Below, piece after piece: positions 1-13,944 of a stretch of 21,888 nt of DNA. The position numbers and the translations under genes were made by a program. The DNA comes from a virus. The notes under the pieces are model-generated. The model did not search any database and had not been told where the DNA came from. It saw only the letters and a list, made by a program, of their open reading frames with translations. Location of the stretch: IMG/VR virus record IMGVR_UViG_3300036903_000062, positions 1 to 21,888 of that record, one strand, 5' to 3'. The first letter of the stretch is position 1, and each line of letters begins with the position of its first letter.

Positions 1-1895
1 CGCGGAATGAGATTCAGCGGAGTGCCCTGCGGTCCCTTCTGCAGGCGCATGGCACCGCGTCCTTTGCCGAGTGCGGTCAGCGGAGCGGAGTTGGCAACGG
101 TGGAATCGATGGCGCTGGCCACGCCGGTCAGCAAGTTACTGTGATTGGCATGGAAGAGCGCGGTGGAGTTCTTGTCGCCCGCATACACCGCTGCCGGATT
201 CGACGTGATGATGCCCCAGACGGTATTCGATTCCAGCTGCGCAGCCGCCACGCCGAGCAGTGCCGGGACCCGGGTGAACGCCTGAAGGTCGTCATTGATG
301 ATGACCTTGCGCGTCAGCGCCACGATCTCGCCGTACGTGCCGAGTGCGTAGTTGATGTTGTTGTCGGTCAGGTTGGCGCGGTGGTACTCGCCCTTCTCAT
401 TCAGCGCCTGTAAGACGGGCGCATCGGCGAGCATCACACGGTTGATGGGCTTGAAGTCCTGTGCCGTCACCTGCCGGCAGAACGGCTGGAAGGTGCGCGG
501 ATAGGCCTCATAGCCCTGGCGCAGGGTCTTGTTGGCGACGTTGGCCAGGATCGCCGGGAAGTCCGCGGTCGATTCTGCGCCGCCCGCGAAGAACTCCCGT
601 CCCCGCGAGGATCCCTGGAGTGCCATCTCCGCAATCCGCGTCACATCCATCCCGCGAGGGTTGGTGCCGCGCAGTTCCAAGGCTTCCTTCGCCATGTCGA
701 TGAGCTTGAAATTGCGGTACTCGCGCGCCATCTCGACGGCGCGGCGCTGCTGCTCGGGGCCGTAGCCATCGAGATATTCCCCGGTTTCGTTGCCGTTGTG
801 GTCCCTGCGCCGCGCCAGGAAGAACCGCCCATCCGCACGCAGCAACAGAGCCATCTGCATGCAGGCAAGGCGCTGCTCCATGCCGTCGCGGGTTACCGAA
901 GTGCCGCCCTCCCCGCGAATCGGGAATGCCGGGCCCTCTGCGCCCGGGCGCGTCGGGACTCCCTGTTGGCCCTTGGTCGCGAGATGGGCAAACAGTTCCT
1001 TCCGTGCCTGATCGACGGGCACGCCCTTGGCGATGAACTCGCTGATGACGGTCTCGTCGATCCCGTATTTGATTGCGGTCGCGCCCAGCGTTTGGATTTC
1101 GCTGACGCGCTCCCGTTCGGCCTGGACCGCCTCTTCACGCGCGGCGGCCAGGGCCTGATCGTTCACAGTACGGGCATCCGCGCCCGTGTCCTGCGTGGTC
1201 GTCTGTTCCATTGCAGGTTTCTCCTTTTGTGGGCTGATTGCCCGTACTGAGTCGTTGGGTTGTGCGCTCAGAAAGCACGTATTGAAATCGGCCGGCACCG
1301 TGCAAGGCGAAATCTCGAACGGCTCCCAGTCGGTGGCCTTGAACATGCCGATTTCTTTATCGTTCAGGTAGGGCGGTTTGCCCTCCGGTATTCCTTCAGT
1401 CTGCGCATCCACCTTTTCGCGTTTGTACACGAAGGTTCCGAAGCTGAGGTTTTGCAGGATGCCGGTGCTGGCTTTGCGGAACATCTCGGCGCCATCCGGA
1501 TCGCCCAGATCGAATTGCAGCGTAGCCATGCCCTTATCGCCGTTGGGCCAGGCGCGGCGCACCACGCCCAACTGGGCGCGCGTGCCGACCTTGCCCGCCA
1601 TGAGGGACTTGAAATCGTCGCCAGTGAAATGGGTGTCGAACACCGGCGCGCCGTTGTTCAGCCGGTCGAAGCGGCAGCCCTGCATGTCGAGCTGGAGCAT
1701 GTAGGGTTCGCCTGTCGCGCGGTCAACCCTTGGGACGGAGGCCCCGCTATACCAGACCACATCGATGGTGCCGTCCTTGGCGTTGGCCGTGCTCGGCAGC
1801 ACCTGTGCATCGGCGGCGAAGACTTCGGCGTCGCACTGCGCGGGCGGCGGCTCGCCGGTACCCGCAAAGGATATTTCGGTTCGTAGAAGTGGCAT
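1..1895 (-). CDS. Prohead protease / major capsid protein fusion (3' end outside window)
   Basis: An open frame of 631 codons runs without a stop from the ATG at 1895 to the window edge, so the C-terminus is missing. Residues 1 to about 215 look like a phage prohead protease: His89 in FDTHF and Ser151 in QNLSFGTF are the likely catalytic pair of the S78/U35-like fold. Residues about 225-330 are charged and helical with many Glu and Gln, as expected for a scaffold or delta domain. From about residue 430 the chain matches the Mu-F/HK97-fold major head protein type, with the features FQPFCRQV, DFKPINRV, VWGIITSNP and ALFHANHSNL. Known members are made as one polypeptide that scaffolds and is then cleaved to mature capsid subunits. 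The start has a very good site, AGGAGG, which overlaps the stop of the upstream ferritin-like gene, so the two are probably translationally coupled. Confidence in the family is high; the exact catalytic residues are inferred. Confidence 0.9.
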   Translation of the reverse strand, partial: MPLLRTEISFAGTGEPPPAQCDAEVFAADAQVLPSTANAKDGTIDVVWYSGASVPRVDRATGEPYMLQLDMQGCRFDRLNNGAPVFDTHFTGDDFKSLMAGKVGTRAQLGVVRRAWPNGDKGMATLQFDLGDPDGAEMFRKASTGILQNLSFGTFVYKREKVDAQTEGIPEGKPPYLNDKEIGMFKATDWEPFEISPCTVPADFNTCFLSAQPNDSVRAISPQKEKPAMEQTTTQDTGADARTVNDQALAAAREEAVQAERERVSEIQTLGATAIKYGIDETVISEFIAKGVPVDQARKELFAHLATKGQQGVPTRPGAEGPAFPIRGEGGTSVTRDGMEQRLACMQMALLLRADGRFFLARRRDHNGNETGEYLDGYGPEQQRRAVEMAREYRNFKLIDMAKEALELRGTNPRGMDVTRIAEMALQGSSRGREFFAGGAESTADFPAILANVANKTLRQGYEAYPRTFQPFCRQVTAQDFKPINRVMLADAPVLQALNEKGEYHRANLTDNNINYALGTYGEIVALTRKVIINDDLQAFTRVPALLGVAAAQLESNTVWGIITSNPAAVYAGDKNSTALFHANHSNLLTGVASAIDSTVANSAPLTALGKGRGAMRLQKGPQGTPLNLIP

Positions 1896-1903
1896 CGTGC
1901 CTC

Positions 1904-2392
1904 CTAATCCTTCACCGCGCTGACGGCGATGTAGTCGTTTTCTCCCAGCTTTTTCAACTGGTAGAGTTGCTTCTGCAACCACGCGACATGGCCCTTGAAC
2001 TTGTCGTCGCCTTCGCGATGCCACTTCACCAGATGCTGGTAGAAGTGGAAGTTCGACATGTCGCCGGCGTCGTAGCACTGTTTGCAGAGATCGGTGAACC
2101 GCGCGATGGCGGCCTGCTCGGCGGCAAAGGCATCGTTCAAAATCTCGGTGACGCTATCGTGGGTCGCGGCGGGCTTCAGCTCAATCGTGGGTGCGCCCTC
2201 CAGAAACAGCGCGCGGCTCACCAGACATTTCATGTGGTCCTCGCACTGCTCCCTCATCTGCTTCAGGCCATCGGCCAGATCCAGACCCAGGCGCTTCACG
2301 TCACGCTGGTCGAGAAGATACTGAAGCATCATGGAGCCTTCCATGTTGGCGGCCTCCTGAAGCCCAGCGATTACCTGTGGGTTTCCTTTCAC
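1904..2392 (-). CDS. Bacterioferritin-like (ferritin-fold) protein in the head gene cluster
   Basis: 162 aa, about the normal length of bacterioferritin. It begins with GTG read as MKG, as Bfr proteins do, and AAGGAAGGAC lies just upstream. It aligns by eye along its whole length with E. coli Bfr: KGNPQVIAGL at the N-terminus, Glu18 and Tyr25 at identical positions, ALFLEGAPT for RILFLEGLPN, AAEQ around the Glu94 equivalent, and KGHVAWLQ for EGHIDWLE, ending with KKLGENDYI for QKMGLQNYL. In the known family these residues form a di-iron ferroxidase centre in a 24-subunit cage. Here the residue at the Glu127 position is Phe, the Glu51 region has a one-residue shift (CEDH), and no Met clearly sits at the haem position. 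Iron oxidation may therefore be weakened or lost. The gene lies between portal and protease-capsid, where phage lambda has no such gene. It could be a capsid-associated protein, a cargo, or an acquired host gene. Confidence 0.85.
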   Translation of the reverse strand: MKGNPQVIAGLQEAANMEGSMMLQYLLDQRDVKRLGLDLADGLKQMREQCEDHMKCLVSRALFLEGAPTIELKPAATHDSVTEILNDAFAAEQAAIARFTDLCKQCYDAGDMSNFHFYQHLVKWHREGDDKFKGHVAWLQKQLYQLKKLGENDYIAVSAVKD

Positions 2393-2418
2393 AAACGTCC
2401 TTCCTTGTGGTTGAGTCT

Positions 2419-4107
2419 TTAGCCGCGGTAAAGCCGTGAGGCCGTTTCGAAACCGCTGCCGGCGCGCGACATGCCGGCGACGAGCAGATCCTTGACCATG
2501 CCCAGGTCCTCTTCCGAGAGCGCCGCGAAGCCCTGGCCCTTGGACTTGGTGGGGGCCGCTTTGCTGCTCGGGGTTCGCTCCTCCGTTGCCGCCGGCTGCT
2601 CCTGGCCACGGAGCGTCGTGTTGCGCGGGTCCGAATCCAGGATGATTTCAAATTTATCCACCAGCTTGTTGAACAGCGCAATCTGCTGAAGCTGGGTGGG
2701 AGGGTCGTAACCGTTCTCCAGCACGGCCTCGAACCAGGTCTTGCGGCCCATGCGGACATCTTTCAATACACCCTCTGCGTCCTTCACCGGATCCACCGAT
2801 TCGAACCGTGGCGCGGTCCACTGCACACTGCGCAGTCCGATCTTCGGGTCGTTGGCCGCGGATTTCGGAATCTTGCCCTGCATAATCAGCGTGTCGACGA
2901 ACCGCCGCCACACAGGCATCGCGAATAACGGAATCAAGGTGAGCCAGCGAAAAGCTTCCACGGTGTTGCGAAAACCCAACATGCCGCCGCGCCAGGAAGA
3001 GTAGTTCACCTGCGACATGTCGCCCGTGCCGAGTTCGTAGGGCAAGCCAATGCCTGCCATGATCCCCTGCAACTCGGTAATTTTGTACTCGCGGTACCCG
3101 CCCGCCGGCGGCGGATTGTTGAACTTGATGTCCTGGCCGGGCTTCAGATATTCGACCATGCCCGGCTGGAAGCTCTCGACCGGCAGCCCGCTCGATGGAT
3201 CGGTTCCCGCGATGCCGAGTGGATCGCCGTCGACGCCTTCCGGTTGTTGGACGAACGCCGTAACACAGGCTTCCACCTTCTTGCGCACGCGCTCCGCATC
3301 GCAGTAATCGTCGAGATCCCGGAGCGCCATCATCACGGGCGCGAGCCACGGCACGCCGCGCACCTGGCCGGGCCGGAGCACGCGGTAAACGTGCATGATC
3401 TGGTCGGCCGGAACCGGCTGGCTCACTATGCCGCCGCGCGGGTTGAGGATCAGCACGCCGCCGGGATGGTAACTGAACAGCCAGTACGCGACGCGGCGTC
3501 CCATCTCGTCGAACTGCACGCCCTCCATCACGTGGCCGTTGACCAGGCCCATCGTACGGGCCTGATCGAGGAAATCGGATTCGAGCATTTGAAGCTGAAG
3601 CGGAATGCGCAGACCTTCGTCCGAAGGACGCGGCCTGAAACGGACAATCGCTTCTCCCGATTCCGCCATAGTGCGGACGGTCAACGTCTGCATGCCATAG
3701 AAATCGAGGCGTTGCGGCGTGTCGCATCCGTCTGCGAAGAACGGCCACTCGGCATCAATGATCTTGTCGATGGCGGTGTTGCCGGTCTTGGCCTTCGGCA
3801 CTATCCCAGTTCCAACCACATTCCCGGCCAGTTCCTCCACCGCGCGCGCCGCATAGGGATTGTTGCGAATGAGATCGCGGCTGCGGTTGCGGAGCCAGAT
3901 GAGCGACCCCATCAGCTCGACATTGGCGTCGGTCGAGGCGGCGTACCAGCCATGGGCGCGGCGGCCGGCGCTGGCGCCTTCGTACCGGAACCGCTGCGCG
4001 TGCCGCTCCAGATAGCCCGTGGTCAATTCGAGCGCGACGCGACTACGCACACGCTGCAACGCAACGCGCGGCGCTACGATGCTGATGGCCTTGTCGAGAA
4101 GATTCAT
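2419..4107 (-). CDS. Phage portal protein, lambda gpB-like
   Basis: 562 aa, in the usual size range of lambda-type portals. The portal forms the dodecameric ring at one capsid vertex through which the terminase pumps DNA. The N-terminal region (about 1-110) has an amphipathic and Arg-rich start and then SLIWLRNRSRDLIRNNPYAA and AVEELAGNVVGTGI, typical of the Phage_portal_2 family. The middle (about 130-380) holds FRPRPSDEGLRIPLQLQMLE, SDFLDQ and YWLFSYHPGG, followed by the conserved region around RGVPWLAPV and NYSSWRGG. The C-terminal 60 residues are polar and low in complexity and probably disordered. The ATG lies 4 bases after the gpW-like stop, and the gene is followed by the ferritin-like gene after 26 bases. 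Family assignment is by recognition of these motifs and by the terminase-gpW-portal order. Confidence 0.93.
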   Translation of the reverse strand: MNLLDKAISIVAPRVALQRVRSRVALELTTGYLERHAQRFRYEGASAGRRAHGWYAASTDANVELMGSLIWLRNRSRDLIRNNPYAARAVEELAGNVVGTGIVPKAKTGNTAIDKIIDAEWPFFADGCDTPQRLDFYGMQTLTVRTMAESGEAIVRFRPRPSDEGLRIPLQLQMLESDFLDQARTMGLVNGHVMEGVQFDEMGRRVAYWLFSYHPGGVLILNPRGGIVSQPVPADQIMHVYRVLRPGQVRGVPWLAPVMMALRDLDDYCDAERVRKKVEACVTAFVQQPEGVDGDPLGIAGTDPSSGLPVESFQPGMVEYLKPGQDIKFNNPPPAGGYREYKITELQGIMAGIGLPYELGTGDMSQVNYSSWRGGMLGFRNTVEAFRWLTLIPLFAMPVWRRFVDTLIMQGKIPKSAANDPKIGLRSVQWTAPRFESVDPVKDAEGVLKDVRMGRKTWFEAVLENGYDPPTQLQQIALFNKLVDKFEIILDSDPRNTTLRGQEQPAATEERTPSSKAAPTKSKGQGFAALSEEDLGMVKDLLVAGMSRAGSGFETASRLYRG

Positions 4108-4111
4108 TCCG

Positions 4112-4366
4112 TTACCAGCGGTCGTCCAGCGTTGGGCCTGTGGGACCGTCGCCGCGCTGGTGCTGCGCGAACCGGACGCGGCTTCCGGTCTGTCCGCTGG
4201 TCTTGCGGATATCCTCTTCGATGGTGGCCTTCGCCTTCAGAAGCTCGTCCGTCGAGCGGTAAGTCACCTCGCGCCCATCCGGGAAGCGGACTTTGAGCGT
4301 GGGGCCTCCGATGGCCTGGGTGACCGCATCCAGGTTCAATTGCAACTGCTGAACGGTCAGTGCCAT
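4112..4366 (-). CDS. gpW-like head-tail connector protein
   Basis: 84 aa from the ATG at 4366. I chose this start over a longer upstream one because GGAAGA is well spaced before it and because only one base separates it from the large terminase stop (TGATATG). The protein begins with a helix (ALTVQQLQLNLDAVTQAI), then a beta hairpin (TLKVRFPDGREVTYRSTD), then a second helix (ELLKAKATIEEDI). This helix-hairpin-helix arrangement is that of lambda gpW, which binds beneath the portal and stabilises packaged heads. Lambda gpW is 68 aa; the extra residues here are a polar Gly/Arg-rich tail. Position between terminase and portal matches the lambda order exactly. Confidence is good for the fold and lower for the detailed role. 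Confidence 0.85.
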   Translation of the reverse strand: MALTVQQLQLNLDAVTQAIGGPTLKVRFPDGREVTYRSTDELLKAKATIEEDIRKTSGQTGSRVRFAQHQRGDGPTGPTLDDRW

Positions 4367-4367
4367 A

Positions 4368-6251
4368 TCAATTTCTTCCAAACCAGTTGCGGCGCGGTAT
4401 CCATGGGTCTTCCCCGCGCTCGGCGGGCGGCTCGGCACTGGCCGGCTTTGGCACCGCCGGAATGTTCGACGGCGTCTCCCCGCGCCGCGTCTGCACCATC
4501 CGCGCGAAGCGGTCGCAATGCACCGGCAGTTTCAAGCCGCTGGCGTACAGCGCGTGCAACGCCGCGTACGCGAGGACCCGGGCGTCCAACCCTTCGTTGC
4601 GGGCGTTGGCCGGCTTCCGCCATTCCTGTTTCGGAAACCCGTTGTGGTACCGCGTGAACTTCCGCTCGGCGGTCAACTGCTCGAAATACTCGAGGTCCCG
4701 CCCGATCGGGAAGTGGCAATAGCCCGGCCCCACGTCCCGGAGCTTCAGCCGGTCGTAGATCGCCGTCTTCGCCGCATCCACGCCAATCATGAAGAACGGC
4801 GTCTGGTTCTTCCGGCTCGGCTTGCGCGGCCAGATCGGCGACTCGCCCGCGCGCCCCTTCGTAGCGTACACACGGCGGTTGTAGCGGTCGCGTGTGAAAT
4901 GCAAAACGGTGGCATCCTTAAACCCGCAGTCGATGCACGTCGCGACGATCCGCATGGGCAGCCCGGACGCATGCAGGTATTCGGAGAGCAGCAGGCCTTC
5001 CAAGTGCTCCCAGACCTCGTTGCGGGTCACGTCGCCGGGGATCACGTGATAGGCAATCGACCACGATTCTTCATCGCGTCCCCACCCAACGATTTCCATC
5101 TCCAACCGGTCTGCCTGCACGTCGACGCCAGCCGTGATCAGCGCGACTCCTTCCGGTGCTTCGGCTTCAAAAGGCTCGCACCGGTTCCACAATGCATGAG
5201 CATCCGTCGCTACTTCGTGGGTCTCCTCCCACAACTCAGCGAGCACCGTGTTCAGAAAGGCTTTCAGCGTCTCAGGCGATTTCTTCGCCGCCAGGAACTC
5301 CACCGCGATCTCCCCCCAGGATTTCTTTGGCGAGATCAACTGCGAGACGCGAAAGCCAGGAATCGGCGACGACGGGTTCGCCGCGCGGTACTCGCCGCGC
5401 TCCACCATCTCGGCTTTCAAGCGGTGAGGAATCAACTCGCTGCACTCGGCGCAGCGGTACGCCGCGTCTTCCGGCCTCCCCTCCGGCCACACCACGCCCG
5501 GCCCCGTGCCGTCGCCGAACGCGAGTACCTGGAAGCACCCGCACTGTGGGCAGGGCACGAAGTAATCCCGCTGGTCGCTCTCGCGCCACGCCAACTCGAT
5601 GCGGCTGACGCCCTTGATCGTCGGCGTGGACGCCATGACGATCTTCTTGTTGTGGGCGAACTCCGCGGTGCGCTGAATAGCCAGCGATACCGGGTCGCCC
5701 TCAGTGCCCGCGCTCGCCGGGTAACGGTCCACCTCATCCAGCAGCGCGTAGCGGATCGGCCGCATGGCCAGGCCCGAGGGCGAGATCGCTCCGGTCAGCG
5801 TGATCTGCCCTGCGCCATTTGCGAGGACCTTGTGTAGCGTCGTGTTGCTCGAATCGCGCGACTTGACGGGCGCAATCTTCCCACGGAGTGCGGGCGTCGC
5901 ACGAAACATGGGCGCCACCCGATCCTTTGAGAGCGCCTTCGCATCCTCCGTGCGCGGCTCGACGACCAGCACAGGCCCTGGATCTACATCAGCGATGAAG
6001 CCGATGAAGTTGAGAAGCACTTCCGTCTTGAGAATTTGCGCTCCCGATAGCACAACGACCTGGCGGCAGGGATGGCTGGGGCTGAGCACATCCATCGGCT
6101 CCCGCTGGTACGGCCGCGTGCGCCACTGGCCCCGTTCGGCCGCCGCGCCGCCGGTCAGGACGCGGTTCTCATCCGCCCACTGCGAGACGGTAATGTCACG
6201 CGGCGGCAGCATGGCCGCGGCGCCAACTTCGTGTATGGAGAACGGTTGCAT
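4368..6251 (-). CDS. Terminase large subunit, GpA family
   Basis: 627 aa, close to lambda GpA (641 aa). It is the packaging motor that cuts concatemeric DNA and drives it into the prohead by ATP hydrolysis. The ATPase half shows the GpA-type deviant Walker A (SGAQILKTE, about 69-77) and Walker B (YALLDEVDRYP, about 168-178), with an ASTP motif at about 207-210. A probable zinc knuckle follows, with CPQC near 234 and CAEC near 267. The nuclease half begins with GVDVQADRLEMEIVGWG near 375 and has an acidic DCGFKD near 441, consistent with a two-metal RNase H-like site. The ATG directly follows the small terminase TAA (TAAATG), so translation is probably coupled. GpA-type terminases usually go with cohesive-end packaging; that is inferred, since no cos site is recognised here. 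Confidence 0.95.
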   Translation of the reverse strand: MQPFSIHEVGAAAMLPPRDITVSQWADENRVLTGGAAAERGQWRTRPYQREPMDVLSPSHPCRQVVVLSGAQILKTEVLLNFIGFIADVDPGPVLVVEPRTEDAKALSKDRVAPMFRATPALRGKIAPVKSRDSSNTTLHKVLANGAGQITLTGAISPSGLAMRPIRYALLDEVDRYPASAGTEGDPVSLAIQRTAEFAHNKKIVMASTPTIKGVSRIELAWRESDQRDYFVPCPQCGCFQVLAFGDGTGPGVVWPEGRPEDAAYRCAECSELIPHRLKAEMVERGEYRAANPSSPIPGFRVSQLISPKKSWGEIAVEFLAAKKSPETLKAFLNTVLAELWEETHEVATDAHALWNRCEPFEAEAPEGVALITAGVDVQADRLEMEIVGWGRDEESWSIAYHVIPGDVTRNEVWEHLEGLLLSEYLHASGLPMRIVATCIDCGFKDATVLHFTRDRYNRRVYATKGRAGESPIWPRKPSRKNQTPFFMIGVDAAKTAIYDRLKLRDVGPGYCHFPIGRDLEYFEQLTAERKFTRYHNGFPKQEWRKPANARNEGLDARVLAYAALHALYASGLKLPVHCDRFARMVQTRRGETPSNIPAVPKPASAEPPAERGEDPWIPRRNWFGRN

Positions 6252-6788
6252 TTACAGGCCCGCGTCCGCGATGGCTTTGCTCACCTTGCGCAGCACGGCC
6301 TCATCGTCGTTTTTCAGTAGCCGATGGATGGCTTTCTCGTCGTTGACGGCGGCCAGCATGGGCGCCAAACGGTCGGCACGCGCCTGGAGGTGGTCCTTCA
6401 CGATGGCAGAGAAACTCGCGGCGTACTCCGAGGCGCGCACCGCCTGGATCAGTTTGCCGGCGCGCTCCTCATATTCCAACTGCGCCGTTCGCGCCTCGAA
6501 GCTCGTTTTGACCGCTCGGGCGCGCAGGTATTGAGCGACCGGATCGCCCGTCGCTGTCGGCGGTTCGGGCATCTGGGAAACCCGTTCCTTCGGTGCTGCG
6601 GCCGCCGTTCGATTGACCGTCTGGCCGGCGAAGGTGTTCTTGGCCCATTCCTGGTTGGCGCGCTCCGGATCGATAGTCCCGTCCGGCAGCGTCGTGATGC
6701 GCTTGGTGGCGATGGCCTTCTGTACGGCGGTGAGACTGCAACCGCGCATCCGCGCGTATGCCCGGAGAGAAATGCCCATCATCGCCAT
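6252..6788 (-). CDS. Terminase small subunit, Nu1-like
   Basis: 178 aa, the size of lambda Nu1 (181 aa). The first 50 residues form a winged helix-turn-helix of the Nu1/excisionase type (SLRAYARMRGCSLTAVQKAI, then the wing IDPERANQEW), which in the family binds the cos region. A polar Ala/Pro linker (about 55-85) follows, then a long helical part (about 85-178) likely to make the dimer and hold the large subunit. It lies immediately upstream of the large subunit with adjoining stop and start codons. Several Met codons occur at the N-terminus (M1, M3, M4); the first is used here because AGGCGA precedes it. It is the first gene of the head operon, and the 80 bases upstream separate it from a divergent plus-strand gene. 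Confidence 0.88.
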   Translation of the reverse strand: MAMMGISLRAYARMRGCSLTAVQKAIATKRITTLPDGTIDPERANQEWAKNTFAGQTVNRTAAAAPKERVSQMPEPPTATGDPVAQYLRARAVKTSFEARTAQLEYEERAGKLIQAVRASEYAASFSAIVKDHLQARADRLAPMLAAVNDEKAIHRLLKNDDEAVLRKVSKAIADAGL

Positions 6789-6824
6789 ACGTTCGCCTAG
6801 TGAATCTTTCTTTGGAAAAGTCGA

Positions 6825-6856
6825 ACTTCAGAGTTGCTATTCGTCGCGACTGAAGT
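6825..6856. promoter_or_regulatory. Inverted repeat in a divergent intergenic region
   Basis: The only space between the terminase operon (minus) and the plus-strand cassette contains ACTTCAG at 6825-6831 and its exact complement CTGAAGT at 6850-6856, separated by 18 bases. This layout suits a dimeric regulator or simply overlapping promoters. On the plus strand TTGGAA (6813-6818) followed 17 bases later by TGCTAT is a weak sigma-70-like candidate. No convincing minus-strand promoter hexamers were found. Seven-base arms can occur by chance, so this is only a candidate. Confidence 0.3.
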
Positions 6857-6870
6857 GATGTATGTGTTCG

Positions 6871-7116
6871 ATGCCACGCACCACCAAGACCACCAAACAA
6901 ACCGCCGCCGCCTGCTACGCCGAACGCCACGCCGAGTGCCAGGACCTGCTGAAGCGCATCGCCAGCCGTCTGGAGCAACACCAGAAGGACCAGACTCAGG
7001 AACCCGCCAACTGGGGGTATGCCGGCGACCTCGGCCGCGTCACCGAGGAACTGGCCTACGTCCTCGCCAGCCTGGGCGACCGCAGCGCGGTGGACCGGAA
7101 AGGACTGGAGTACTGA
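6871..7116 (+). CDS. Small hypothetical protein (81 aa), first gene of plus-strand cassette
   Basis: Reads against the flanking phage genes. ATG at 6871 gives MPRTTKTTK; an ATG 9 bases upstream (6862) is equally possible, and neither has a strong ribosome binding site. The chain is polar. A basic Thr/Lys N-terminus is followed by a probable helix with Cys (YAERHAECQDLLKRIASRLE, about 16-35) and a second helix (DLGRVTEELAYVLASLG). It ends 2 bases before the start of the next gene, so the two are one transcription unit. No named family is recognised. Codon choice (third-position G/C) agrees with a real gene. Confidence 0.7.
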   Translation: MPRTTKTTKQTAAACYAERHAECQDLLKRIASRLEQHQKDQTQEPANWGYAGDLGRVTEELAYVLASLGDRSAVDRKGLEY

Positions 7117-7118
7117 CC

Positions 7119-7628
7119 ATGCAGAAACACAACGTACAAATCGGCACGACCTACATCGTGAAGGTCAGCGGCACGCTGGCCAAGGTTCGCATCACGCGCG
7201 AGCACCCACGCGGCGGATGGTACGGCACCAACCTCGCCACTGGCCGCGAGATCCGCATCCGCACAGCCGCCCGCCTCCGCTCGGAGGTGAAGCCCGCTGG
7301 AGGAGAGTGCCCCGAGCAAATCCGCAACCCGCGCCTGCCGGGCTTCAGCGCCGACGAATTGCGCCGCGTTGTGGAACGGGCCAAGGCCGAGATTCTCGCG
7401 GACGTCGCCGCCGGAACCGTCCCCAGCACTTGCGCCTCCTTCAGCGAACTGCACGACTACACGGACGCCAACGGCTACGGCGGGGCGTTTGAGCGTCCCT
7501 TCGACAACAACGAGACGGACTTCTGGAACGCTGTCCAGGATGCCGTTGACGCATGGATCAAGCAGGGAGGCTTGCAACGCCTCACTGACGACGAGGCGCG
7601 CCGGATCGCCGACGAGATCGAATTCTGA
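7119..7628 (+). CDS. Conserved hypothetical protein with N-terminal SH3-like beta domain
   Basis: 169 aa. The ATG at 7119 starts 2 bases after the stop of the preceding gene, and GGAG at the end of that gene serves as the ribosome binding site. Residues 1 to about 58 are beta-rich (IGTTYIVKVSGTLAKVRI, GGWYGTNLATGREIRIRTAA) and resemble a small SH3/KOW-like barrel. That is a fold guess from strand pattern only. Residues about 70-115 are helical (FSADELRRVVERAKAEILAD). The C-terminal third is acidic with Asp/Glu/Trp (NNETDFWNAVQDAVDAWIKQ, then DDEARRIADEIEF). No signal peptide or membrane segment is seen. The function is unknown; its partner genes (81 aa upstream, DUF3489 downstream) suggest a small DNA- or RNA-related cassette. 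Confidence 0.8.
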   Translation: MQKHNVQIGTTYIVKVSGTLAKVRITREHPRGGWYGTNLATGREIRIRTAARLRSEVKPAGGECPEQIRNPRLPGFSADELRRVVERAKAEILADVAAGTVPSTCASFSELHDYTDANGYGGAFERPFDNNETDFWNAVQDAVDAWIKQGGLQRLTDDEARRIADEIEF

Positions 7629-7642
7629 AACAGGAGACCACC

Positions 7643-8194
7643 ATGACGACTTTCACCATTGACACCGACAACAACATCACTGCCTTCGCCGCCGCCGAGC
7701 AGATTCCAGAAGGCCAAGATCGTTTCACCAGCGAAAAGGAGTTCGCCAAGCTCTCCGCCGACTGGCCCATCACGCGGTTCGTCGAAGTCTGGAACGCCTT
7801 CGCCGGCGCGCCGCCCTTCGGCGAGTTGAAGCCGGTCAAGAAGTTCACGGACCGCAAGACGGCGGTCGCGCGAATCTGGAAGGCCATCCAGGCACTGACG
7901 CCCACCCCCGCGCCACAGGCCGCCCCGGTTGCGCCGAAGAAGGCGAAGGCGACCAAGGCGGCCACTGCGGAGGACGCCACGCCCACGCCGCGCGACGGCA
8001 GCAAGAAGGCCATCGTCCTCGACATGCTGAAGCGCCCGGACGGCGCTACGCTCGCCGACATCATGTCTGCTACCGATTGGCAGGCACATAGCGTCCGCGG
8101 CTTCATCTCCGGCAGCCTCGGAAAGAAGATGGGCCTCACCGTCGAATCCTTCAAGCGCTCCGATGGGGTCCGTGCTTACAAGGTCGCGCAGTAA
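7643..8194 (+). CDS. DUF3489 domain protein
   Basis: 183 aa with AGGAGA well spaced before the ATG. Residues 1-85 are a mixed domain (FTSEKEFAKLSADWPITRFV, then VEVWNAFAG and KKFTDRKTAVARIWKAIQAL). Residues about 90-125 are an Ala/Lys/Pro-rich flexible linker. Residues about 125-183 are the DUF3489 domain, recognised from GSKKAIVLDMLKRPDGATLA, then IMSATDWQAHSVRGFISG and a closing KKMGL...YKVAQ. This is a winged-helix-like pattern often seen in proteins encoded near site-specific recombinases and on mobile elements. Here no recombinase is nearby. The gene ends the plus-strand cassette and is followed by a strong hairpin. A role in binding DNA is likely from the fold pattern but not proven. 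Confidence 0.88.
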   Translation: MTTFTIDTDNNITAFAAAEQIPEGQDRFTSEKEFAKLSADWPITRFVEVWNAFAGAPPFGELKPVKKFTDRKTAVARIWKAIQALTPTPAPQAAPVAPKKAKATKAATAEDATPTPRDGSKKAIVLDMLKRPDGATLADIMSATDWQAHSVRGFISGSLGKKMGLTVESFKRSDGVRAYKVAQ

Positions 8195-8213
8195 CAGCCC
8201 CACACCGAAACGC

Positions 8214-8250
8214 GCCGCCGGTCTAATCGCCGGCGGCGTTTCTGTTCTTC
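8214..8250 (+). terminator. Intrinsic terminator between convergent genes
   Basis: Arms GCCGCCGG (8214-8221) and CCGGCGGC (8230-8237) are perfectly complementary around an 8-base loop. The outer GAAAC and GTTTC can pair further across a small bulge. On the plus strand the stem runs into a T-rich tract (GTTTCTGTTCTTC), so it should stop transcription leaving the DUF3489 gene. It contains the TAG stop of the convergent minus gene (8223-8225). On the minus strand the tail has few Ts, so termination there is less sure. Confidence 0.7.
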
Positions 8251-8483
8251 AGATCCTCGGCGATGGCGGCGAATCTTTCGTGGACCAACTGCTCCCGGAG
8301 TTGGCATTCCCCCGCGCGGACATAGGTTCCATTGATCCGCGCAATGATGCGATTCTCCAACTCGGCCAACTCCCTACGCACCTCGGCCAGCAGCGCGCGA
8401 TTCTGAAGGCTGACATAGGTCGCGATCAGTCCGGACACCAGCCCGGTTACGGGGATCAGAATCTGAAATAGATGATCGTTCAC
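8223..8483 (-). CDS. Small single-pass membrane protein with coiled coil (86 aa)
   Basis: The GTG at 8483 is preceded by GGAGAGGG at good spacing, which decides the start against longer readings. Residues about 5-27 (FQILIPVTGLVSGLIATYVS) form one transmembrane helix. Residues 28-85 are charged and heptad-like (NRALLAEVRRELAELENRII, EQLVHERFAAIAEDLKN), a likely coiled coil in cytoplasm or periplasm. The architecture resembles inner-membrane spanins or phage accessory membrane proteins, but no lysis enzyme is nearby and no family is recognised. It overlaps the end of the upstream gene in another frame by 110 bases. It is the last gene of the modification block before the convergent cassette. 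Confidence 0.72.
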   Translation of the reverse strand: MNDHLFQILIPVTGLVSGLIATYVSLQNRALLAEVRRELAELENRIIARINGTYVRAGECQLREQLVHERFAAIAEDLKNRNAAGD

Positions 8484-8643
8484 GTTCCCTCTCCAGTATG
8501 CGTAGCTCGGCGTGCCAGTCCGAGAGTGCCAAACACAGGCCGTGTAGATCCTTGTGACCGCCACGCAGCAACGCTTCGACGGCGGCGATCTCCGCGCGGC
8601 ACCGCGCCATCTCACGTTGGAGATCCGGCGCCGCGGCTCTCAC
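8374..8643 (-). CDS. Small coiled-coil hypothetical protein (89 aa), overlapping its neighbour
   Basis: The GTG at 8643 overlaps the stop of the upstream gene (GTGA), which suggests coupled translation; there is no strong separate ribosome binding site. Residues about 8-55 look like a genuine helical protein (LQREMARCRAEIAAVEALLR, then LHGLCLALSDWHAELRILER). The last 34 residues, where the frame overlaps the next gene (8374-8483), have an Arg/Ser-rich composition. That looks more like an out-of-frame reading constrained by the other gene. Either the protein really ends at 8374 or a frameshift joins it to the membrane protein. Function unknown. Confidence 0.5.
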   Translation of the reverse strand: MRAAAPDLQREMARCRAEIAAVEALLRGGHKDLHGLCLALSDWHAELRILERERERSSISDSDPRNRAGVRTDRDLCQPSESRAAGRGA

Positions 8644-8804
8644 TTCGTCGTTGCAGGCGGCGGCTTCGGCGGGCATTTGTGGCCCGTCTTCGCAAGGCAT
8701 CCGATCTGGTGACCCACCTTCTTCACGCCATGCACGGTCTTCTGGGCTCCGATTACGACCAGAGCGACCGCCATCTCGGCCACTATGATTCCAGGGGTTG
8801 GCAT
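8640..8804 (-). CDS. Tiny membrane protein (54 aa)
   Basis: The ATG at 8804 has a strong GAGGAGG ribosome binding site 5 bases upstream, which makes this short frame credible. It starts inside the last 22 bases of the methyltransferase gene. Residues about 4-20 (PGIIVAEMAVALVVIGA) are a probable transmembrane or hydrophobic helix. A basic stretch follows (VHGVKKVGHQI), then two Cys residues in IGCLAKTGHKC and a Pro-rich tail ending in Lys. No family is recognised. Its size and hydrophobic N-terminus fit a small phage membrane protein. Together with the two genes after it, it forms a run of three overlapping small frames. Confidence 0.68.
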   Translation of the reverse strand: MPTPGIIVAEMAVALVVIGAQKTVHGVKKVGHQIGCLAKTGHKCPPKPPPATTK

Positions 8805-10114
8805 TGATCCTCCTCACTTGATTTGCGCGGTTCCGCGAACGCGCGCCCATCCTCTGCGTGCCGCGCCTGCTTCCCGCTGAACCCCTGCCACCTGGTGACA
8901 ATCACATCGCAGTACTTCGGGTCCAACTCAATCACGCGCGCCTGGCGGCCGGACTTCTCGCACGCGATCAGCGTCGTGCCGGAACCCCCGAACGGATCGA
9001 GCACGGTATCGCGGCCCTTGCTGCTGTTCCTGATGGCGCGCTCCACCAGTTCCACAGGCTTCATCGTCGGGTGAAGATCGTTCACCGAAGGCTTCTTGAT
9101 GAACCAGACGTCACCCTGATCGCGGGCGCCGCACCAGAAATGATCCGTGCCTTCCTTCCACCCATAGAGGATCGGTTCGTACTGGCGTTGATAATCGGAA
9201 CGTCCCATCGTGAAGGTGTTCTTCGCCCACACGATGAAGGTGGACCAGTGCCCTCCCGCCTCGCGGAACACCCGCTGCAGCGTGTGGATCTCCGACGACG
9301 ACATGCAGATGTAGATCGCGCCCTTGGTCACCGCCAACAGGTTCGTGCAGGAGTCCCGCAGGAACTGCTCGAAGCCATCGCCCAGATTGTCGTTGGCGAT
9401 CCTGCGATTCTTCTTGCGGAGCTTGTCCTTCATCGTCGCGCCGTAGTTCACGTTGTACGGTGGATCGGTGAAGGCCATGTCAGCCAAGCCGCCGGCCATG
9501 ACCTTCTCCACGGATTCCATCTGCGTGCTGTCGCCGCAAAGCAGGCGGTGCTCACCCAGAACCCACACGTCGCCAGGGACCGTGACCGCAGTCTCCGGCG
9601 TCTCCGGGGCTGCATCGTCGTCGGTGTTCCCGGCGCGCTCCTCTTCCGGCTCCTGAAGCAGCGCTTCAATTTCCTCATCGCTGAAGCCGACGATGTCCAG
9701 ATTGAAGCCGTCCACCTGGAGCGACTCCAGTTCGACGCGCAACATCTCCTCGTCCCATCCGGCATTCATCGCCAGACGATTGTCCGCGATGACCAGCGCG
9801 CGGCGCTGTGTTTCGGAGAGGTGGTCGAGGACGATGACCGGGACTTCGGTCATCCCGAGTTTCCGGGCGGCAAGCAGGCGCGCGTGCCCGGCGATGATCA
9901 CTCCGTCCGCGCCGACCAGGATTGGATTCGTCCACCCGAACTCGACGATGCTGGCGGCGACCTGCGCGACCTGCTCCTCCGAATGCGTCCTCGCATTGCG
10001 GATATAGGGAATCAGGCGGTCGACCCGCCATCGCTCTACGAGAAGATCGCGCAAGGCACGCTCTGGTGTCACGGAACGTTCCTGACTCGTGGTCGTATCT
10101 TGCGCGGTCTTCAT
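8783..10114 (-). CDS. ParB-domain DNA adenine-type methyltransferase (DPPY class)
   Basis: 443 aa, a fusion. Residues about 28-115 are a ParB/sulfiredoxin-like domain with RLIPYIRNARTHSEEQVAQV, the GHARL signature (76-80) and the ADNR motif. An acidic linker (about 150-178) follows. The catalytic part has DPPY (217-220, motif IV) and later DPFGGSGTT (373-381, motif I). This IV-before-I order is that of beta-class amino-methyltransferases, and DPPY suggests N6-adenine as target. LHPTMKPVEL near 347 is the usual conserved segment. It transfers a methyl group from S-adenosylmethionine to DNA; recognition sequence unknown. No partner nuclease is present, so host-restriction evasion or genome marking is likely. 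A second methyltransferase at 11003-12544 has a near-identical N-terminal domain. The start lacks a clear ribosome binding site and lies 12 bases after the preceding stop. Confidence 0.9.
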   Translation of the reverse strand: MKTAQDTTTSQERSVTPERALRDLLVERWRVDRLIPYIRNARTHSEEQVAQVAASIVEFGWTNPILVGADGVIIAGHARLLAARKLGMTEVPVIVLDHLSETQRRALVIADNRLAMNAGWDEEMLRVELESLQVDGFNLDIVGFSDEEIEALLQEPEEERAGNTDDDAAPETPETAVTVPGDVWVLGEHRLLCGDSTQMESVEKVMAGGLADMAFTDPPYNVNYGATMKDKLRKKNRRIANDNLGDGFEQFLRDSCTNLLAVTKGAIYICMSSSEIHTLQRVFREAGGHWSTFIVWAKNTFTMGRSDYQRQYEPILYGWKEGTDHFWCGARDQGDVWFIKKPSVNDLHPTMKPVELVERAIRNSSKGRDTVLDPFGGSGTTLIACEKSGRQARVIELDPKYCDVIVTRWQGFSGKQARHAEDGRAFAEPRKSSEEDQCQPLES

Positions 10115-11002: not shown

Positions 11003-12544
11003 TCAGGATGTCTTCTTAGGTCCGTAGAACGGATTCGGACCGCGATGTTTGATGGCCAGCGAGTCCTGTTGCTTGGGGTTCAAAGCCTGATCGACGGGCA
11101 CGCCGCGCGACTCGGCTGCCGTAGCGAATGTTTCCCCCGTCTCCGCGAGCATTGCCGTCTCACCAGTCAGGTTCATGATCCGGCGCAGGATCACGTCGCA
11201 GTAGGCTGGGCTGATCTCACAGCCATACCCAACGCGTTCCAACAACGCCGCGGCGGCCATCGTGGTTCCAGACCCCATGAATGGATCGAACACCACGTCG
11301 CCGGCATCGCTGAACGCCAGCAGGAAGAACTCGACGAGCGGGCGTGGGAACGGAGCGGAGTGCGATCCCTGACCGGACTCCGTGCGGACCTCGATCACGT
11401 TGGAAGGCCGCGCGACGCCCGCGTGCCGGCCTTCGGAATCATCGGACAGGCTGCTCCGGCTGCGTTGCCACGCGCTCTGGTTCTTTCCCCCGTCGGCTGC
11501 TGCGCCGCGCGGCCCCGTGCCCAGCAAGCCGCTGCCGGAAGTCGATTTCGGGTTGTTCGGGTTGTAGTCGAAGCAATCCTCCGACTCGTGCCCGACCGCC
11601 TTGGGCCGGAATTTGATCTGCTGCTGCCGGCAGAAATGGTAAATGGGCTCGAATGCGTTCTTAAATCGATTTCCCCAGCCGCCCGGCACGCCGTTGTCGG
11701 TCTTGCGCCAACAGAACTCGTCGACGAAGCGCCAGCCCCATTGCCGCCGGTGCGCCAGCACCAGATCCATCACGTAGAGATTCCGCTCGCCCTCATCGGC
11801 GTGCGCCTTAATGTTCAGGAAGTAGGAACCATCCGGCGCCAGCACCGACTCGATCCCGCTGGCGACCGCACGGAACCACTCCACGTACTCTTCCGGGGGC
11901 ACCGGCTTGAACCCGCTCGTGGGATCATACTCGCGCTGCGTGGCGTACGGCGGCGACGTAATCACTACGTTGGCCTTCTGCCCGTCGAACAATCGCGCTC
12001 GCGTGCCATGATCGCGGCAGTCCCCGCAAATCAGCCGGTGCTTTCCGATCAACCAGACGTCTCCCGCCCGCGTTACTGGGTCCGCCGGCGCCTCGGGGAT
12101 CTCCTCCTGAGCCGCGGCAGGAGCCTCTGCCGCAGGTTCGGCATCGGCCAGGAGCTTGGCGAGTTCTTCTTCGGAGAAGCCCAGCAGATCGAGCCGCCAA
12201 TCGGCGGCTTGCAGTTCCCCGAGTTCCGCCGCCAGCGTATCTTCGTCCCACCCGGCGTTCTCACTGATCCGGTTGTCCGCGAGTATGTACGCGCGTTTCT
12301 GCGTCTCGCTGAGGTGATCGAGCACGACCACCGGAACGTGTTCCAGCCGTAACTTCCGCGCGGCCAACAACCGTCCGTGCCCGGCGATGATCCCGGCGTT
12401 GGTATCCACCAGGACCGGATTGTTGAACCCGAACTCCACGATGCTCGCCGCAATCTGGGCAATCTGATCGTCGGAATGCGTCCGTGCATTCCTCGCGTAT
12501 GGCACCAGCCGCGCGACAGGCCACAGTTCGATTTGCCGCGCCAT
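11003..12544 (-). CDS. ParB-domain DNA N4-cytosine-type methyltransferase (TSPPY class)
   Basis: 513 aa from ATG 12544; a TTG at 12601 would add 19 residues and overlap the previous gene. Neither has a good ribosome binding site, so the start is uncertain. Residues about 8-95 (ATG numbering) form a ParB/sulfiredoxin-like domain (RLVPYARNARTHSDDQIAQI, GHGRLLAARKL, LADNRISENAGWDE), strikingly like the one in the 8783-10114 gene. An Ala/Glu/Pro linker follows. The catalytic part has TSPPY (about 196-200), the signature usual for N4-cytosine methyltransferases, and DPFMGSGTTM further on, again in beta-class order. A 60-residue Gly/Ser/Asn-rich insertion with little order separates these (FDYNPNNPKSTSGSGLLGTG). 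Substrate is double-stranded DNA with S-adenosylmethionine; the recognition site is unknown. The SPPY-to-N4C rule is good but not absolute; some SPPY enzymes methylate adenine. Confidence 0.9.
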   Translation of the reverse strand: MARQIELWPVARLVPYARNARTHSDDQIAQIAASIVEFGFNNPVLVDTNAGIIAGHGRLLAARKLRLEHVPVVVLDHLSETQKRAYILADNRISENAGWDEDTLAAELGELQAADWRLDLLGFSEEELAKLLADAEPAAEAPAAAQEEIPEAPADPVTRAGDVWLIGKHRLICGDCRDHGTRARLFDGQKANVVITSPPYATQREYDPTSGFKPVPPEEYVEWFRAVASGIESVLAPDGSYFLNIKAHADEGERNLYVMDLVLAHRRQWGWRFVDEFCWRKTDNGVPGGWGNRFKNAFEPIYHFCRQQQIKFRPKAVGHESEDCFDYNPNNPKSTSGSGLLGTGPRGAAADGGKNQSAWQRSRSSLSDDSEGRHAGVARPSNVIEVRTESGQGSHSAPFPRPLVEFFLLAFSDAGDVVFDPFMGSGTTMAAAALLERVGYGCEISPAYCDVILRRIMNLTGETAMLAETGETFATAAESRGVPVDQALNPKQQDSLAIKHRGPNPFYGPKKTS

Positions 12545-12563
12545 CGCGGGCGGGACACGCGGG

Positions 12564-13817
12564 TCAGCCAATGCTGTCCACCATCTGAATTCGGCGGCCA
12601 ATCCACCGCATCACCGGTACCGCCATCGAGTTTCCAATTGCCCGGTACCGGGGACCGTCGGCGGCTGGCTTTCCGCGACATGGGATCAACGTGTAATCGT
12701 CCGGCATCCCCTGCAACCGCTCGCACTCACGCGGGGTCAACCGCCTGACCGCCAAGGGCCCGCCGACCGCGAGCAACGGAGCGGCATCACCACGGCCTGT
12801 CCCGCCGGACTGTGCCTTGAGCGGCGGCACAACTTCAGATGGACCGCCCCGCCCGTTTCGCGCCACGCGACTCTCGAAGCACACCGCGATCTGGCCACCC
12901 GCGTTGGCATGGCTGCGGTCATGCGGCATCGCCCGGAGCGTCGGCGCGAGCGGTCCGGCGTCAGCTCCGTGGTCCTTCGCGGAGAACGCGGTCACCAGTG
13001 TCTCCGTCTCATAATCGATCCGGTGCATGCCGCCCCCATTCAGACAGTGCGAGATATTGCCCGTCGAAGCGACCAGATGCTCGTGCGATTCCTGCTTGCG
13101 TGCCCGGAGCGTGCCCGCTCCTTCGTGCCAGTAGCCATCGCCCGTGGTGTGGTGCACCGCGACTACCGGATCCTGCCCTCGCGAATCGCCGTTTCGTTCG
13201 ACTCCCCGCCCACTTCGTGTAAGGCTTGGCGCAAGATCGTGGGTAATTCCTTCCCCCGTCTGGCGGCGCGCCGGAGTATGCCTGCACAGGCCTTCGCGCT
13301 CAAGAAGTACCGCTGCGGCACGCCGCCAGTCTCCAAGATGTCCGACAACGAAGACGCGACGGCGCCGCTGGGGCACTCCAAAGAACTGAGTGTCCAGCAC
13401 TCGCCAGGCGCAACCAAACCCGAGTTCCGCCAGCGCCCCGACGATGGAGCCGAAGTCCCGCCCGCCGTTCGAGGACAGAACACCGGGGACGTTTTCCCAG
13501 ACGATCCAGCGAGGCCGCAGTCGGCCAGCAAGCCGGCAAAACTCGATGGCCAGGTTGCCACGCGCATCCTCCAGGCCGCCACGTCTTCCGGCGAGGGAGA
13601 AGGACTGGCAGGGAGTTCCTCCGGCCAGAACGTCGATTGGATCGCAGCTTCGTTTGATCGTCGTGAAGTTGCCAAGGTTGGGAACGTCCGGGTAGCGATG
13701 CGTCAGCAGCGCGGAGCAAAACGGATCGATCTCGGCAAACCATGCCGGCCGGAAGCCCAGCGGCTGCCAAGCCACGGTCACCGCCTCAATGCCCGAACAT
13801 ACGCTGCCGTAAGTCAA
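12564..13817 (-). CDS. DNA (cytosine-5-)-methyltransferase
   Basis: 417 aa from a TTG at 13817. An ATG at 13886 would add 23 residues that do not look conserved and that lack a ribosome binding site. Members of this family normally begin right at YGSVCSGIEA, and AGGTTGGA precedes the TTG. Motif I is SVCSGIEA (about 5-12), motif IV GGTPCQSFS with the catalytic Cys near 70, motif VI ENVPG near 108, motif VIII QRRRRVF near 150, and motif X RAIGNSMAVPV near 390. The region between motifs VIII and IX is a long variable target recognition domain with several GG-rich turns. The enzyme flips out cytosine and methylates C5 using S-adenosylmethionine. No cognate endonuclease or Vsr is nearby. It is the first of three methyltransferases in one direction and is separated from the next gene by 19 bases. 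Confidence 0.93.
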   Translation of the reverse strand: MTYGSVCSGIEAVTVAWQPLGFRPAWFAEIDPFCSALLTHRYPDVPNLGNFTTIKRSCDPIDVLAGGTPCQSFSLAGRRGGLEDARGNLAIEFCRLAGRLRPRWIVWENVPGVLSSNGGRDFGSIVGALAELGFGCAWRVLDTQFFGVPQRRRRVFVVGHLGDWRRAAAVLLEREGLCRHTPARRQTGEGITHDLAPSLTRSGRGVERNGDSRGQDPVVAVHHTTGDGYWHEGAGTLRARKQESHEHLVASTGNISHCLNGGGMHRIDYETETLVTAFSAKDHGADAGPLAPTLRAMPHDRSHANAGGQIAVCFESRVARNGRGGPSEVVPPLKAQSGGTGRGDAAPLLAVGGPLAVRRLTPRECERLQGMPDDYTLIPCRGKPAADGPRYRAIGNSMAVPVMRWIGRRIQMVDSIG

Positions 13818-13860
13818 AGAAATCCAACCTGGCGGATGGCCAAGGGGCTCGCTGCAGGGG

Positions 13861-13883
13861 TGACAACCTGAAGTGACAACCTG
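13861..13883. repeat. Tandem direct repeat ahead of the C5-methyltransferase
   Basis: TGACAACCTG occurs at 13861-13870 and again at 13874-13883, a period of 13 bases. GCAGG at 13854-13858 and CCTGC at 13880-13884 also make an inverted pair around it. The block lies upstream of the TTG start at 13817, so it could be an operator for the methyltransferase itself. If the ATG at 13886 were the true start it would instead be coding. Confidence 0.4.
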
Positions 13884-13944
13884 CATAAACCCATGTAACT
13901 AGGCAAACTGCGCAACATTTCAAGCCGCGGCCGCCGATGCCCAG

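Follow-up and report, generated by a model that had tools for sequence, protein, structure and literature searches.

Several described systems share features with the phage locus analyzed here. In encapsulin systems with ferritin-like cargo, the gene for an HK97-fold shell adjoins a ferritin-fold gene. A virus-encoded bacterioferritin (Bfr) derived from Thermoproteota is under purifying selection and has been judged likely functional and a likely AMG (PMC10904782). Dps-like genes are carried by Streptomyces phage Tomas (gp36), its relatives and Lactobacillus phages, and their products have a ferritin-like four-helix fold. The head module of Rhodobacter phage RcDormio has TerS, TerL, a gpW-like gene, a lambda-type portal and a protease-capsid fusion in the order found here. 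In the literature we searched on phage ferritin and Bfr, no description of a Bfr between portal and capsid genes was found. Such an arrangement had been predicted in a viral sequence of 21,888 nucleotides (IMG/VR record IMGVR_UViG_3300036903_000062, positions 1 to 21,888), the whole of which we refer to as the window. The present family resembles the published viral Bfr in being a bfr-like viral gene under purifying selection, and differs from it in its eroded active sites and its fixed position between portal and capsid. New here are the site erosion within a phage lineage, the cassette behavior of the slot and a suggestive association with a capsid tail.

The gene lies at window positions 1904-2392 on the minus strand and encodes 162 aa from a GTG start. 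Its product matches the Pfam Ferritin family (PF00210) with an E-value of 1.2e-11 and a score of 45.1 bits (cut-off 24.5), and this match and the predicted four-helix fold place it in the ferritin-like superfamily. The best sequence matches in the PDB are the Bfrs of Brucella and Blastochloris, with E-values of about 1e-8. An AlphaFold2 model built with 24 aligned relatives (pLDDT 90.5, pTM 0.85) shows a four-helix bundle plus a short additional helix at the C-terminus, and helix D is interrupted at residues 128-134. Foldseek gives the model TM-scores of 0.82-0.90 to Bfr structures (0.89 to 4am2). A second model, of the divergent relative L093 (loci and their proteins are given L numbers), agrees with it in fold and in the interruption of helix D, with a TM-score of about 0.87. 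These matches and models confirm the proposed full-length Bfr-like protein as one of predicted bacterioferritin fold, and the residues named in the original prediction (Glu18, Tyr25, LFLEGAP and the His130 equivalent) are all present in the alignment. Such residue matches are not due to chance, since Tyr25 and Glu94 are invariant in 72 unique relatives.

Compared with Bfr (TIGR00754; PDB 1bcf and 4am2), the window protein has the same fold, length, MKG N-terminus, LFLEGxP motif, Glu18, Tyr25, Glu94 and His130. It differs in lacking Glu51 and the haem ligand Met52, in its displaced Glu127 and its helix D insertion, and in belonging to a phage-only family sited in a head operon. The cut-off of the Bfr equivalog model TIGR00754 (125.55 bits), which host Bfr clears, is missed by the window protein (39.9 bits) as well as by the relatives L118 (63.5) and L182 (94.4). 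The phage Dps-like proteins, unlike this family, are of the Dps type and have about 12-13% identity in structural matches, and Tomas gp36 is encoded in an accessory region rather than in a head operon. The window protein has no match in PHROGs v4, so the family is missed by annotation pipelines relying on that resource.

The expected intact head operon is also present, with all of its components identified on the minus strand. The order is complete, running from the terminase small subunit (6252-6788; phrog_57, E 1.5e-17) through a GpA-type terminase large subunit (4368-6251; GpA_nuclease 2e-87, GpA_ATPase 4e-76), a gpW-like head-tail adaptor (4112-4438; phrog_2545, E 4.4e-13), a lambda-family portal protein (2419-4107; Phage_portal_2, E 4.8e-104) and the ferritin-fold gene to a protease-major capsid fusion (2-1895; phrog_4523, E 1.9e-119). 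The last of these begins with the N-terminal tail MPLLRTE and runs off the window; its full-length orthologue in L008 has 747 aa and matches PF25209 (Phage_capsid_4). The ferritin-fold gene is separated by 26 bp from the portal stop codon and by 8 bp from the capsid ATG. A consensus scan of positions 1600-4300, a weak method for Acidobacteria, returned no promoter-like and no terminator-like sites, and co-transcription of the gene with the head operon is therefore likely. In RcDormio, by contrast, the portal and capsid genes overlap directly and there is no ferritin gene.

The original prediction had raised an evolutionary link to encapsulins, and this was not supported. Although an HK97-fold shell gene adjoins a ferritin-fold gene in both cases, the phage shell is a true capsid, an ordinary protease-capsid fusion with Phage_capsid_4 in an operon with portal and terminase, and the ferritin-fold protein is Bfr-like rather than of the EncFtn or EncB type. 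The alignment shows no extension beyond the end of Bfr that could be a C-terminal cargo-loading or targeting peptide. Among NCBIfam models for encapsulin cargo (EncFtn/EncB), the window protein has no match, and L182 scores 28.1 bits against EncB_fam, below the threshold of 90. Encapsulin homology was thus rejected by family scans and tail comparison.

The pairing of Bfr homologue, portal and capsid recurs well beyond this genome, as a neighborhood search revealed. About 80 IMG/VR contigs carry the ferritin-fold gene in the portal-capsid slot at 30-99% identity, which rules out a lone acquisition. A single-sequence search of IMG/VR found 74 loci and an alignment search 90 stretches, 58-99% identical and nearly full length; where enough flank is available, the portal is followed by the ferritin-fold gene and then directly by the capsid gene, with 5-21 bp in nearly all. 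Using the portals of outlying members as queries recovered more alleles in the slot, including L093-L096 (45-47% identical to the window protein), L113 (56%) and L118 (30%), along with L173-L177, L182, L204, L249, L296 and L300-L302. Among 50,697 GenBank phage records, the gene was not found in isolated phages; GenBank matches to a host Bfr query mostly look like records of host origin. Two Acidobacteria genomes have the gene, a Bryobacterales bog MAG (L084) and L085, in which a decayed ferritin-fold copy and a capsid remnant lie inside an Acidobacteria contig. The L085 segment (7148-8643) is a decayed prophage piece with a gpW-like gene, a truncated ferritin gene and a truncated capsid gene between cellular genes. 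In a profile search of 396 Acidobacteria genomes, the remaining matches look like ordinary Bfr. The family is therefore phage-borne, carried by soil phages with Acidobacteria as likely hosts, a host assignment resting on the two MAGs.

In a tree with 32 cellular Bfrs (31 from Acidobacteria plus that of E. coli), the phage proteins all fall on one side of a branch with support of 100/98, and L182 is the phage-side member nearest to the cellular proteins. Recent acquisition from a host, which we also considered, was rejected by this separate phage clade. The gene is under purifying selection: from pairs with dS under 1, its median dN/dS is 0.115, compared with 0.079 for the portal and 0.160 for the capsid, and the reading frame is open in nearly every contig that has it.

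We aligned the 72 unique phage proteins with the 32 cellular Bfrs and surveyed the ligand positions, with E. coli Bfr as the numbering reference; the same columns are seen in the fetched Acidobacteria Bfrs. All 32 cellular proteins keep Glu18, Glu51, Met52, His54, Glu94, Glu127 and His130. The phage proteins retain Tyr25 and Glu94 in every case, His130 in 71, Glu18 in 69 and His54 in 58 of 72. At the Glu51 position they have Cys (64), Ser (5), Ala (2) or Glu (1), only three have Glu127 at the aligned position, and none has the haem ligand Met52, which is present in 32/32 cellular Bfrs. The six di-iron ligands (E18, E51, H54, E94, E127 and H130) are complete only in L182, and there too the haem ligand is missing. 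Glu127 is kept in L173 and L118, neither of which has the insertion; both have lost Glu51 and His54, and L118 has lost His130 as well. The main clade has lost Glu51 and has a displaced Glu127, and L300 and L302 additionally lack Glu18. These alignments show that the di-iron and haem sites were eroded inside the phage lineage.

In the window protein, E18, H54, E94 and H130 are retained, Glu51 is replaced by Cys and Met52 by Glu. A seven-residue insertion, GDDKFKG (window 1991-2011, minus strand), falls at about codons 128-134; its exact placement is ambiguous, and it is indicated by the alignments and by the helix break in the model, where it interrupts helix D close to the di-iron site. The insertion stands just before His130 and has 7 residues in the main clade, 11 in L093 and 12 in L300; it is absent from cellular Bfr and from the phage relatives L118, L173 and L182. 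The original prediction had placed Phe at the Glu127 position. This holds in the gapped alignment and is a consequence of the insertion, for in an ungapped register His125 stands at or next to that position. Its suggestion of changed chemistry is borne out by the lost Glu51, the displaced Glu127 and the lost Met52, and the alignment of ligands that it proposed finds Glu18, His54, Glu94 and His130 surviving, while adding the insertion and the loss of Met52, which it had not mentioned. Two new histidines (window 120 and 125) are present in 71/72 phage proteins. On this alignment evidence, the location of His125 leaves room for an altered metal site, and a metal may still be bound by Glu18, Glu94, His130 and the two new histidines.

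The slot between portal and capsid behaves as a cassette. On starred branches of the portal trees there are at least five presence/absence changes of the ferritin-fold gene, with three forced on a smaller tree, and in phages without the gene, the capsid gene follows the portal almost directly. L287 and L288, both nested among phages with the gene, have an in-frame deletion scar (L287:2584-2714, L288:4065-4195) in which the capsid starts with MNPQVIAG or MNPQVTAG, that is, the ferritin start (MKGNPQVIAG) fused to about capsid codon 13. These scars show that loss of the gene is real and tolerated; absent from sister phages and deleted in two lineages, it is dispensable. Alleles are also replaced. 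L081 and L095 have portals that are 100% identical and capsids that are 96% identical, yet their ferritin-fold proteins share 54% identity. At the DNA level, the 93-100% identity declines to 45-67% where the ferritin gene begins and is back at 98% some 40 codons inside the capsid gene, so that the replacement (L081:7001-7610 versus L095:5808-6410) covers only the ferritin gene and the first capsid codons. In L083, an allele resembling that of L081 (84%) is combined with different head genes. Both exchange and deletion thus carry capsid N-terminal codons along. In L042 and L080, opposite-strand inserts separate the portal from the ferritin-fold gene, and the distance to the capsid stays near 10 bp; the L080 insert (6370-6971, minus strand) likely encodes a PIN toxin and a small partner, as judged by sequence only. 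An ORF of ~37 aa, with a likely membrane helix (MTDFWSTYKPIIMAIVFACAVTGLLVWNDPTLLHACR), is found between the portal and ferritin genes of L081 (6860-6970) and L095 (5667-5777). Long gaps before the capsid gene of some loci, considered as possible extra genes, are mostly capsid N-terminal extensions instead.

The capsid start M[P/A/S]L[L/M/T/I], followed by a variable and often Pro/Ala-rich linker, is present in 67/72 loci with the ferritin-fold gene and in 1/91 without it, with some loci overlapping. After removal of near-copies, the counts are 24/26 and 1/21. The exceptions are L118 and L173-L177 (gene without motif) and L087 (motif without gene); the capsid of L182, the most Bfr-like allele, starts with MPLL. 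Five independent tree contrasts of tail versus gene include about four concordant and no opposite cases (p 0.06-0.25). The motif was defined post hoc and then checked on newly fetched loci, where the association stayed one-directional and not significant; we regard it as suggestive. It is possibly mechanical, because the deletions and swaps span the gene-capsid junction. The M[P/A/S]LL tail may hint at a docking peptide and does not amount to evidence of one.

Our preferred reading, which we hold tentatively, is that the gene encodes an accessory protein, dispensable and produced along with the head, in which the ferritin fold has been repurposed for a putative role in or on that head. A phage-specific Bfr descendant would be translated, like the portal and the protease-capsid fusion, from the head operon, its fold being kept for service as an internal protein, assembly aid or stabilizer, and enzymatic iron oxidation would no longer be its main job. 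The fusion might dock it through its M[P/A/S]LL tail, which, being N-terminal, would face inside in HK97-like proheads. The tie between gene and capsid, intact despite the inserts in L042 and L080, counts for a head role, as do the likely co-transcription, the low dN/dS, the separate phage clade, the stepwise ligand loss, the exchange of alleles together with the capsid start and the distribution of the tail motif. However, sister phages assemble heads without the protein, which counts against such a role, and a close, co-evolved fit between the two proteins is made less likely by the swap of 54% identical alleles on a near-identical capsid. L118 and L173, with the gene and without the motif, likewise count against docking by the tail. 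We consider it doubtful that a short peptide at the N-terminus of the protease-capsid fusion, M[P/A/S]LL followed by a flexible linker, loads the ferritin-fold protein into the prohead, with cargo gene and peptide exchanged as one cassette. Such loading would be an independently evolved phage counterpart of the encapsulin process in which the shell, not the cargo, bears the docking peptide.

A function in the infected cell is a plausible alternative. The protein would be an iron/redox effector (AMG), acting as a late cytoplasmic metal sink or as a ferroxidase-poor, haem-less subunit that enters host Bfr cages and alters iron storage or release. It is Bfr-derived, one relative (L182) retains the six di-iron ligands, host genomes have canonical Bfr as a potential partner, hetero-oligomeric Bfr cage structures are among the fold matches, and virus-encoded Bfr provides a precedent as a likely AMG (PMC10904782); allele exchange would also fit a gene answering to the host. 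Against it, 71/72 proteins have an incomplete six-ligand set and none retains Met52; the gene has a fixed position within the head operon, with a tie to the start of the capsid gene; and the phage proteins group in a clade of their own instead of branching with those of hosts. The patchy presence, with at least five changes forced on the portal tree, the L081/L095 allele swap and the accessory inserts of L042 and L080 in the portal-ferritin interval would suit an exchangeable gene for superinfection exclusion, anti-defence or another moron function, with the ferritin fold incidental. We judge this improbable given the constant place and orientation of the gene and, unlike typical morons, no promoter or terminator of its own seen in the scan. 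That it is a passing acquired host gene with no selected function would agree with its absence from sister phages and the scars in L287 and L288, and is hardly credible for an old separate clade with a dN/dS of 0.115 over deep divergence and a frame open in nearly every contig.

In this family, the conversion of an iron-storage enzyme fold to another use by a phage would be documented with unusual clarity, with the stages in between surviving as present-day alleles, from the complete site through the half site and the insertion to further loss. If located in the head, as we prefer, the protein would found a new class of head accessory proteins, and ferritin-fold proteins would have come together with HK97-type shells along a second path, distinct from that of encapsulins. 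If located in the cell, it would be a widespread means by which phages influence iron use in soil and peat Acidobacteria. Three uncultured Caudovirales proteins in BFVD annotated as "prohead protease" (A0A6J7XDU5, A0A6J7WIS1 and A0A6J7WPK9; 333-763 aa) have a weak ferritin-like Foldseek match; should these matches be genuine, other phages have head proteases with a fused ferritin-like domain. Elsewhere in the window, three DNA methyltransferase genes are clustered at 8783-10114, 11003-12601 and 12564-13886 (minus strand), two of which resemble ParB-methyltransferases by sequence and one of which is a cytosine-5 type (Pfam), and a RecD2-like helicase gene lies at 19224-21428.
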